From Neobacillus driksii (GTDB taxonomy: Bacteria; Bacillota; Bacilli; Bacillales; Cytobacillaceae), in assembly GCF_013409995.1 (NCBI RefSeq), contig NZ_JACCBX010000018.1, positions 62,001 to 126,000 on the forward strand: a stretch of DNA of 64,000 nt, given 5' to 3'. This document shows, piece by piece, positions 8,609-58,236 of the stretch; positions within the stretch are counted from its first letter, which is position 1, and each line of letters opens with the position of its first letter. The notes under the pieces are model-generated. The model was not told the origin of the DNA and did no database searches. It worked only from the letters and a program-made list of their open reading frames with translations. The position numbers and the translations under genes are program-made.

Positions 8609-9937
8609 ATGGAACGAAAATTACCATTAAAAGAAATCATAGCCTTGGGCTTTTTTATGTTTGCCTTATTTTTAGGTGCTGGGAATATTATTTTCCCGCC
8701 ATTACTTGGCCAGCAGGCTGGTGAATCCCTATTGACAGCTACCATTGGGTTTTTAGCAACGGGTGTTGGCCTGCCTCTTTTGGCTGTCTTTACCATCGCG
8801 AGATCAGGCGGGGATTTAAATGACTTATCAAATAGGGTACATCCCGCATTCGCTAAGGTCTTTCCCGTTATTATTTATTTAACGATTGGACCATTATTCG
8901 GAATCCCTCGTACCGGAACGGTTACGTATGAGATTGGTGTTGCTCCATTCCTGCCAAATGAAAGCAGCATGGGGTTATTTATTTCAACATTGGTATTTTT
9001 CCTTATCACCTATTGGCTTGCACTAAATCCAGCAAAGCTAGTAGATCGTGTTGGAAAAATTCTTACACCGCTACTTTTACTATTAATCGTAGTAATTTCA
9101 ATCAGAGGATTTGCTTCTCCGATTGGTTCCATTGGTGAGGCAGTAGGAAAATATAGAGACGGAGCGTTTTTTGGCGGGTTTGTCGAAGGGTATTTAACGA
9201 TGGATGCGATCGCTGCTCTTGTTTTTGGGGTTGTTGTGATTAATCGCGTGCAGGAAATGGGAATAAAATCAGCAGCTGTTATTCGTTCTTATACGATTAA
9301 GGCGGGAATCATTGCAGGTATGGGGTTATCGTTTGTCTATATATCCTTATCATTTATTGGTGCCACCTCTGTAGAGGGTGTAGGAATGCAGGAAAATGGC
9401 GGGGATATTCTTTCTTCTGTCACATCACTTCTATTCGGACCATTTGGGTCCATCATTCTTGCGTTGGTTATCACCGGAGCCTGTTTGACCACTTCTGTAG
9501 GTTTGGTGGCTGCATGTGGTGAGTATCTAAGTCAACGATTTCCTAGACTTTCCTATCCAGTTGTGGTAACCATTCTTTGTTTATTTAGTTTTACCATTTC
9601 GAATCTAGGGTTAAGTCAATTAATTTATTTCTCTATACCACTGTTAATTACTATTTATCCGATTGCGATTGTTCTGATTTTATTATCTCTGTTGCACTCG
9701 TATCTACCGGTGTCGAGGGCTGTTTATATAGGTGCAACCATTGGTGCGGGAATAATTAGTCTATATGATGGTTTATCAACTGCTGGTATTGAAATAGCAT
9801 CCATTTCTACAGCATTTTCTTTCATACCGCTTTACACAAATGGATTAGGATGGTTGCTCCCAAGTATCGCGGGCGGTCTGATAGGGTTACTTTTTCAATA
9901 TACAAAGCTATTTAATTTGGCAGCATCATCAAAATAA
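8609..9937 (+). CDS. brnQ: branched-chain amino acid transporter BrnQ
   Basis: Sodium- or proton-coupled uptake of Leu, Ile and Val. The 442-residue product is almost wholly hydrophobic with about 12 membrane segments. Its start, ALGFFMFALFLGAGNIIFPP, is characteristic of LIVCS-family BrnQ proteins; ARSGGDLNDLSNRV near 75 and IPRTGTVTYEIG near 103 follow. The start at 8609 has GGAG 6 nt upstream; an in-frame ATG at 8567 lacks a ribosome site. Monocistronic, ending directly in a terminator. Confidence 0.92.
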   Translation: MERKLPLKEIIALGFFMFALFLGAGNIIFPPLLGQQAGESLLTATIGFLATGVGLPLLAVFTIARSGGDLNDLSNRVHPAFAKVFPVIIYLTIGPLFGIPRTGTVTYEIGVAPFLPNESSMGLFISTLVFFLITYWLALNPAKLVDRVGKILTPLLLLLIVVISIRGFASPIGSIGEAVGKYRDGAFFGGFVEGYLTMDAIAALVFGVVVINRVQEMGIKSAAVIRSYTIKAGIIAGMGLSFVYISLSFIGATSVEGVGMQENGGDILSSVTSLLFGPFGSIILALVITGACLTTSVGLVAACGEYLSQRFPRLSYPVVVTILCLFSFTISNLGLSQLIYFSIPLLITIYPIAIVLILLSLLHSYLPVSRAVYIGATIGAGIISLYDGLSTAGIEIASISTAFSFIPLYTNGLGWLLPSIAGGLIGLLFQYTKLFNLAASSK

Positions 9938-9967
9938 GAGACTAGGGCATGCTCCCTAGTCTCTTTA
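9937..9967 (+). terminator. intrinsic terminator of brnQ
   Basis: AGAGACTAGGG (9937-9947) pairs perfectly with CCCTAGTCTCT (9954-9964); TT follows. The stem starts at the last base of the stop codon. An inverted-repeat element begins 10 nt past the last C. Confidence 0.8.
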
Positions 9968-9972
9968 ATGTA

Positions 9973-10249
9973 AGGCACTGTTATGATTCATTGTTGATTT
10001 TCGTGTAGGTGTTTGAAACATTAGGCGGAGAATTTCCGGCTATTGTATATAGAGGAACCTTATGAAGCAGTTATAAGCGGAGATATTCCGGTTAACTGCT
10101 TTAAATAAGACAAATTCCAAGGATATGGATACAATAAGCGGAAAAACTCCGCTTATTTTTAAGGAAATATGGGTATTTCCCAATTTAAACGGTAATTCTC
10201 CGCTTATTTTCCAAACACAGTGAAATCAGCATTCAGTTTTAACAGAGCC
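9973..10249. mobile_element. MITE-like element, copy 1 of the TIR family
   Basis: A non-coding 277-bp element. Its left end (GGCACTGTTATGATTCATTG, then TTGATTTTC) is inverted at the right end, whose reverse complement begins GGCTCTGTTAAAACTGAATG. The 7-bp direct repeat TAATGTA flanks it exactly (9966-9972 and 10250-10256), as expected of a target duplication. The interior holds four imperfect palindromes of the form TAAGCGGANNNTCCGCTTA. A roughly 80% identical copy lies at 57964-58236, and a third element with the same ends is at 37393. No transposase is encoded, so mobilisation in trans is inferred. It fills most of the gene-free stretch after brnQ. Confidence 0.8.
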
Positions 10250-10362
10250 TAATGTATGTAAGATAACGAAAAAACGTGCAATCATAAGAAAACTGGATAT
10301 TATACACGCTTACAATGAATATGTTAACGTTTTTATGGCAAATGTTTCCGTTTTCCATCGCT

Positions 10363-10392
10363 TTGTAAAAAGTCACACCAATGTACGATAAT
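10363..10392 (+). promoter_or_regulatory. putative promoter of the 44-residue small protein gene
   Basis: TTGTAA (10363-10368), 18-bp spacer, GATAAT (10387-10392), 32 bp before the start codon. Nothing else is recognised in 10250-10424. Confidence 0.4.
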
Positions 10393-10424
10393 AAAGATAT
10401 AAATCATACAAAGGTGGTAATAAA

Positions 10425-56922: not shown

Positions 56923-56969
56923 GCAAGAGGTGTAAAGGTCGAGAATTCAAACACTTGGAGGATTAGAAT

Positions 56970-57911
56970 ATGAATAACTCAAAAGGCTTTGATAATGCAA
57001 ATTTTTACGACATGAAATGGGACCTGAAAGGCGATTTATGGGCCCATGATCCGGTTATAGCGAAGGAAGGTTCTTGCTGGTATGTTTTTCATACTGGAAA
57101 TGGCATTCAAATAAAAACGTCTGAAGATGGGGCTAACTGGAAGCAGGCAGGACAAATTTTCCCGTCATTACCCGAGTGGTCTAAGCAGTATGTACCTGAG
57201 AAAGAGGAGGAAAGTATTTGGGCACCAGATATATATTTCCATGATGGAACGTATTATATCTACTATTCTGTGTCTACTTTTGGTAAAAATACTTCCGCCA
57301 TCGGATTAGTAACCAATACCACGCTCAACCCTGAAAATCCTGATTACAAATGGGTGGACAAGGGATACGTTATCCATTCCAGTGAGTCTGACAACTACAA
57401 TGCGATTGATGCCAATTTGATTTTCGACCAAGAAGGTGTGCCATGGTTGAATTTTGGATCATTCTGGTCCGGAATCAAGCTTATTCAATTGGACCCTGTA
57501 ACGATGAAGCTAGCAGAGGGTGCGGAGCTTTTGTCTATTTCAAGCAGAACGGAACAGCCAAATACGATTGAAGCGCCTTTTATTGTTCACCGTAATGGCT
57601 ATTATTATCAGTTTGTATCTTTTGATTTCTGCTGCCGTGGAATTGAAAGTACCTATAAAATTGTCGTTGGCCGATCAAAGACTATTACAGGACCTTATTT
57701 TGATCGAGATGGGGTATCAATGATGGAGGGTGGAGGAACCTTAATCGACGCAGGTGATGATAGATGGATTGGCCCTGGACATTGTGCAGTTTATTTTTCC
57801 GGTGACTCATCCCTTCTAGTCAACCATGCTTATGATGCCTTGAAAAAAGGAAAGCCAACGTTGCGGATTAAACCATTATATTGGGATCAAGAAGGCTGGC
57901 CGCATATCTGA
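56970..57911 (+). CDS. cytoplasmic GH43 endo-1,5-alpha-L-arabinanase (AbnB-like)
   Basis: Single-domain GH43 propeller of 313 aa without signal peptide. Catalytic acids: [10 protein letters not shown] near residue 26 (base Asp), [13 protein letters not shown] near 146 (Asp) and [16 protein letters not shown] near 199 (Glu); positions 27/147/201 in the Geobacillus intracellular arabinanase AbnB agree closely. [11 protein letters not shown] near 267 is the late conserved blade. GGAGG before the ATG. Last gene of the arabinan block; it would shorten imported arabino-oligosaccharides for the GH51 and other GH43 enzymes. Confidence 0.88.
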
Positions 57912-57917
57912 GAATAG

Positions 57918-57957
57918 AAAAAGACTTTGGGGCAGTGCGATCCCAAAGTCTTTTTTA
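57918..57957 (+). terminator. terminator of the arabinan block
   Basis: AAAGACTTTGGG (57920-57931) pairs with CCCAAAGTCTTT (57942-57953), then TTT. An inverted-repeat element begins 13 nt past the last C. Confidence 0.88.
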
Positions 57958-57963
57958 CATTTA

Positions 57964-58236
57964 GCTGTGTTATGATTCATTATTGATTTTCGGGTAGGTA
58001 TGAGAATTCATAGGTGGAGAATATCCGGTTAATGCATATAGAGGAAGCCTAAAAAGCGGATATAAGCGGAGAAATTCCGGTTAACTGCTCAAAATAAGAC
58101 AAAATTCAAAGATTTGGATCATATAAACGGAAAAACTCCGCTTATTTTTAAGGAAATATGGGTATTTCCCGATATAGCCGGAATTTTTCCGTTTATTTTT
58201 CAATCACAGTAAATCAACAGCCGATTTTACGCAGCC
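57964..58236. mobile_element. MITE-like element, copy 2 of the TIR family
   Basis: About 80% identical to copy 1 at 9973-10249 over its whole length, including blocks such as TATGATTCATTNTTGATTTTC and TTATTTTTAAGGAAATATGG. Left end AGCTGTGTTATG; the reverse complement of the right end is GGCTGCGTAAAATCGG. Flanks ACATTTA and AAGTTTA match at five of seven positions, a decayed target duplication. Its right edge includes the stop codon and final Ala codon of tatC. It fills the gene-free stretch between the last GH43 and tatC. Confidence 0.78.

Follow-up and report, generated by a model that had tools for sequence, protein, structure and literature searches.

A 64,000-nt stretch of the Neobacillus driksii genome (hereafter, the window) contains three short elements with common inverted ends, each lying just past the stem-loop of an intrinsic terminator. 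Our analysis of these elements, of further copies in the same genome and of relatives in other Bacillales indicated that they are probably non-autonomous miniature inverted-repeat transposable elements (MITEs), moved in trans by a transposase of the IS1595 family that chooses as targets a run of Ts followed by a run of As. The association with terminators is strong when compared with naive placement, and it comes mostly from this T-run/A-run preference and from the loss of insertions from genes. A residual hairpin effect of two- to three-fold was seen in both sets of sites analyzed, and it fits either selection or a weak sensing of structure.

Three Elements Adjoining Intrinsic Terminators

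Element 1 (9974..10249, + strand, 276 bp) belongs to an AT-rich MITE family, designated family A. It starts 10 nt past the last G-C pair of a terminator stem-loop read from the sequence (9938..9963, + strand), and its left target duplication TAATGTAA (9966..9973, no strand assigned) matches the right copy TAATGTAT (10250-10257) at 7/8 positions. A predicted intrinsic terminator also lies within element 1 (10134-10156), so that an insertion may add a back-up terminator. Element 2 (37393..37634, + strand, 242 bp) has a GC-rich foldback core and represents family B. The last G-C pair of the araQ terminator, whose stem-loop (37351..37381, + strand) is also read from the sequence, precedes element 2 by 11 nt, and the element is flanked by the left duplication TTGTTTAA (37385..37392, no strand assigned) and the right copy GTGTTTAA (37635-37642), again with a 7/8 match. 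Element 3 (57963..58236, + strand), another member of family A, follows the last G-C pair of a third stem-loop (57923..57950, + strand, likewise read from the sequence) by 12-13 nt. Its first base is changed (AGC instead of GGC), and its right end is decayed and merges with the native flank from about 58231; the true right end is not fixed because GCAGCCAAGTTTAA, found there, resembles the native flank of the relatives G252, G253, and G234.

An earlier reading made from the letters of the window (the sequence-only reading) had described the three elements, their common inverted ends, their distance from the terminators, the related AT-rich interiors of elements 1 and 3 and the unrelated GC-rich core of element 2. 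All of this was recovered here, and the proposal that the ends define the mobile unit was borne out. The exact 7-bp direct repeats that it reported were rejected: elements 1 and 2 each have an 8-bp duplication in which one base is altered, an empty counterpart of the element 2 site holds a single TTGTTTAA, and repeats of 8 bp were found across the collected sites.

Copies of the Ends and Complete Relatives

Families A and B have ends of the common form GGCTSTGTTA-N8-TGTTGATTT. The N. driksii genome yielded 36 matches to family A, 22 of them longer than 200 bases, and 55 match rows to family B, some of which are pieces of one copy. When the end pattern was searched in the whole genome with up to three mismatches, 58 forward and 56 reverse half sites (114) were obtained, vs. 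8 and 5 (13) with a reversed control pattern. Paired elements numbered 156 in the fetched loci and 0 in 1,029,203 reversed bases. Among 199 genomes sampled from Bacillales, 40 had exact ends of the C variant, and 31 of 397 had those of the G variant, with no control match among the matches listed in either case. Elements 1 and 2 fold more stably than their shuffled versions (z -8.5 and -8.1, respectively). The elements thus show the features of MITEs: a length of 242-276 bp, no transposase gene, inverted ends, multiple copies, and a foldback structure. Two further arrangements were noted among the collected loci. At locus L107, two different elements of this group (9891-10133 and 10145-10419) are separated by 11 nt, and both have an 8/8 repeat; at locus L095, an end at 10043 on the - strand is continued by a series of repeats with a unit length of about 48 bp, and its partner end was not found there.

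The sequence-only reading had suggested looking for a transposase gene with the same ends, and such genes were found in relatives. Genome G124 has a transposase gene between two of these ends, spaced by 1624 bp, and the 8-bp repeat ATTTCTTT borders the pair on both sides without a mismatch. The transposase of this complete element matches the IS1595 family profiles PF12762, PF12760, and NF033547, with an E value of 3.7e-17 for PF12762 and 214 bits for NF033547 (cut-off 75) at locus L149; the transposase assignment rests on these family profile matches. Scanning genome contigs with the G124 protein gave 73 related loci, nearly all from Bacillales and one of them from Neobacillus sp. DY30. A pair of the ends, 1.2-2.4 kb apart, was present in 33 of the 73, and 27 of these 33 carried a 7/8 or 8/8 repeat. 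The ends of the MITEs agree with those of the complete IS1595-family elements at 18 specified positions. Judged from these likenesses, families A and B appear to be new MITE families of the IS1595 family.

Target Sequence and Terminator Association

Insertion sites were collected from 185 non-redundant loci (150 sites, 1.24 Mb of host sequence), and a second set, for which the test had been fixed beforehand, added 57 sites from 67 new loci, some of them in genomes of the first set. The loci were picked by end patterns and do not represent whole genomes, so the resulting 207 sites exclude elements with weak ends, including element 3, which the end-pattern finder overlooked. Target duplications, which the sequence-only reading had expected, were found as 8-bp repeats, with an 8/8 match at 98 sites, 7/8 at 45, and fewer at 64. 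Alignment of 108 sites with a duplication of at least 7/8 gave the consensus TTTTT-[8 A/T]-AAAAA, in which G and C hardly occur at positions 1, 2, 7, and 8 of the duplication. The same logo was obtained at the 47 of these 108 sites that had no predicted terminator. The complete elements share it as well: 27 of them showed the target logo of the MITE sites, 7 (strict settings) to 10 (lenient settings) lay beside a terminator and 3 were inside a called open reading frame (ORF). Insertions per control position climbed with the T5+A5 count, being 0.0015 at a count of 4 and about 0.31 at a count of 10; this gradient is far larger than the hairpin effect described below.

Terminators were predicted with a home-made scorer, under strict and lenient (-8, 2.5) settings. 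Of 1239 called genes, 209 or 440, respectively, had such a terminator no more than 100 nt from the stop codon. Sites with a predicted terminator within -2 to +12 nt were considered terminator-proximal. Under strict settings, 62 of the 207 sites were terminator-proximal vs. 2.14% of intergenic positions, an enrichment of about 14-fold over random intergenic placement just past terminators; under lenient settings, the figures were 94 of 207 and 5.1%. A histogram of stem-to-duplication distances covered 37 terminator-bearing sites, and 26 of them had values of 0-5 nt, as would be set by the T-run. The three-out-of-three placement at terminators seen in the window did not extend to the whole genome, where 21 (strict) or 28 (lenient) of 48 placeable sites were terminator-proximal. 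Most of the collected copies, 145 (strict) or 113 (lenient) of 207, lack a predicted terminator, and by the rule that the sequence-only reading itself had set this counts against a choice of target by terminator structure. From these counts and from the unchanged logo at the 47 terminator-free sites, a hairpin is not required for target choice.

A sequence matrix was trained on 44 terminator-free sites. In 89 gaps bearing a terminator, 54 insertions were located beside it; the matrix expected 46.8 and uniform placement 7.3. The matrix assigned 51% of its mass to coding DNA, vs. 14 of 150 sites found in coding regions as called by a simple ORF rule. Among 112 sites in clean gaps, 57 lay no more than 60 nt from a stop codon (32.7 expected). 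The position that an insertion takes inside a gap is largely accounted for by sequence, the choice among gaps less so.

Filled and Empty Sites in Relatives

Filled and empty site pairs, another expectation of the sequence-only reading, were found at element 2. Its site is empty in G016 (97-98% identical) and in G234, which hold a single copy of the target with the hairpin already in place; the araQ terminator is therefore older than the insertion. G252 has at this site an element that matches element 2 at 97-100% in the aligned parts and shares the altered start of its right repeat, although the flanks are only 81-89% identical. This is the same insertion, probably transferred from one lineage to another or else lost from G016. 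In G253, a copy only 82% like element 2 occupies the same 8 bp, with flanks 90-93% identical, and it looks like an independent insertion.

Element 1 occurs in G016 and is missing from G252. Its gap varies among relatives, since another repeat with GGGGACGGTTCTT-like arms is located there in G229 (L315:527-794) and about 2.3 kb of other sequence in G235 (L316:575-2917). Element 3 is also present in G016. Its terminator is followed in G252 and G253 by family B elements in reverse orientation, placed within 1-2 nt of the same point and without a clear 8-bp repeat. G234 has 19 extra bases at this site; an excision footprint was considered for them and was not established. The reuse of two terminators by different elements in relatives points to a choice of site and not to survival alone.

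Sequence Preference, Selection, and Structure Sensing

In the mechanism that we favor, a DDE transposase of the IS1595 family would recognize the common ends, move the MITEs in trans and pick target DNA by a roughly symmetric T-run/A-run sequence. The U-tract of a terminator would provide the T half of this target, or the A half on the other strand, and this would place terminators among the best intergenic targets. Insertions into genes, also allowed by the sequence model, would mostly be lost by selection; an insertion a few nucleotides past the stem spares the hairpin and the first Ts and would probably be nearly harmless. A plain A/T target preference could in this way steer a transposon family to the harmless zone behind genes without recognition of structure.

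Several results weigh against this mechanism. A search of the N. driksii genome for PF12762, the only transposase family searched for, gave no match, so the mobilizing transposase would not be in this genome. The excess over the matrix within gaps had a p value of 0.005 overall and of 0.010 in the N. driksii genome (18 insertions seen, 14.4 expected), and these expectations include the true site among the candidates, which favors the sequence model; in the other genomes, 36 were seen vs. 32.4 expected (p 0.088). With matching by log-likelihood ratio, 18.1 terminator-proximal sites of 150 were expected under strict settings and 47 were seen. The hairpin odds ratio, calculated with a cut of -10 in strata of T, A, and A+T count, reached 3.12 (z 5.1) for the first set of sites; the second gave 3.08 (z 2.95), and pooling both gave 3.10. 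Start codons were not depleted of insertions, with 20 sites within 30 nt and 17.5 expected. Given this and gap types near expectation (13 convergent, 79 tandem, and 20 divergent of 112), avoidance of promoters is a poor explanation of the residual association, and the positions of the insertions lend little support to selection as its origin.

The odds ratios and the undepleted start codons are also arguments for a sensing of terminator structure on top of the T-run/A-run sequence, in which an IS1595-type transposase or its target complex would respond to a DNA hairpin or to the terminating transcription complex and insertion would be lifted two- to three-fold beyond the sequence preference. 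Further points in its favor are an odds ratio that stayed at 2.21 (z 3.9) once nearness to stop codons had been added, a ratio of 2.69 at sites with perfect, and so probably young, duplications, a hairpin coefficient of 0.86 (p 0.0004) in a logistic regression on the 112 clean-gap sites after sequence and gene context, and the two terminators that hold different elements in different relatives. We nevertheless consider it unlikely. Most sites lack a strict terminator and share the logo of those with one, sequence accounts for 46.8 of the 54 within-gap cases, with a p value of 0.088 for the excess outside the N. driksii genome, and the odds ratio was lower at perfect duplications than at the remaining ones (2.69 vs. 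3.71), as expected from selection. In addition, no terminators are mentioned in the consulted parts of the reports on ISEc69 and ISApl4, two IS1595-type elements compared below. If structure sensing did occur, these DDE transposons would have an inherent bias toward the region behind genes where insertion is safe; the leftover effect, which selection or model error may also produce, is in any case quantified, with an odds ratio of 2.2 to 3.1. Thus, from the earlier proposal that terminator structure selects the target, the enrichment at terminators and a residual association with hairpins stand, and the target itself is mainly T-run/A-run sequence.

Survivorship alone, that is, random intergenic insertion with persistence only where it is harmless behind terminators, would account for the deficit of coding insertions relative to the sequence model and for the excess near stop codons. 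It is highly improbable, being disfavored by the sharp natural target logo, by the number of insertions beside terminators relative to uniform placement and by the different element found in G253 at the very 8 bp used by element 2. Even less probable is an origin from another transposon family or from a terminator-targeting group IIC intron, in which the IS1595 likeness of the ends would be accidental. The lack of a PF12762 match in the N. driksii genome and the insertion of group IIC introns at terminators, described in the consulted part of PMC4424553, could be read in its favor. Against it, the ends agree with those of complete IS1595-family elements, these elements have the same target logo, and inverted ends with 8-bp duplications are the signature of DDE transposition. 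These ends and duplications, and the absence of any Rfam match at gathering score in the 64-kb window, led to rejection of a group IIC intron; weak sub-threshold Rfam matches over the araQ terminator and its surroundings were taken as chance. The T-run/A-run preference of an IS1595-family transposase therefore remains the favored explanation.

Cargo Genes of Complete Elements

A second ORF behind the transposase gene was observed in the complete elements. It differs between most of them and encodes at least 75 aa in 24 of 27; examples, within loci L368-L405, are L371:2323-2895, L375:1889-2356, L377:4074-4583, and L396:4023-4457. A Pfam scan of 20 such ORFs gave nine matches above the cut-off (hydrolase, HIT, TPR, two GNAT, DMP19, DUF4825, glyoxalase, and HXXEE), four weaker ones and none for the other seven. 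From their gene content, the complete elements look like one-gene cargo transposons that swap cargo. A 718-bp element with perfect ends in G156 (L165:1364-2081) has no transposase gene and encloses a GrpB-family gene (PF04229, E 8e-52). These abundant and so far unnamed repeats of Bacillaceae are now connected with a family of transposases in which complete elements frequently bear a cargo gene.

Comparison With Known Systems

No paper on these ends or on a terminator bias of IS1595 was found among the titles and abstract openings of open-access articles in PMC. The prokaryotic MITEs covered in a review (PMC10969869) are, like the elements described here, short, non-coding and intergenic, with strong foldback and ends common to a complete element; the sections consulted have no entry for the present families, and the text of the review mentions neither Bacillus nor IS1595. 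Group IIC introns likewise insert at terminators (PMC4424553, in part), and they differ in being retroelements with a ribozyme and a reverse transcriptase, whereas the MITEs described here are bounded by inverted ends, duplicate their target and, in most copies, are not at a predicted terminator. An excerpt of PMC9208149 counts IS1595 among the families that are over-represented in gaps between co-directional genes.

The closest comparison is with two IS1595-type elements, known here from parts of the respective reports. For ISEc69/Tn7052, an IS1595-family composite element, 23 transpositions were mapped in E. coli; the 8-bp duplications were 100% A/T at positions 1, 2, 7, and 8, with insertion between T and A (PMC7835479). 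Eleven of these insertions were in genes and 12 between genes according to its discussion, and all were in genes according to another passage. For ISApl4, 35 of 39 sites were tabulated, mostly with A/T 8-bp repeats, and 16 of the 35 were within genes (PMC12561309). Both differ from the present MITEs in being complete elements, in other hosts and with other ends, and in having many copies in genes. Both share with them the A/T-rich 8-bp duplications, and the target profile of ISEc69 is the same as that found here.
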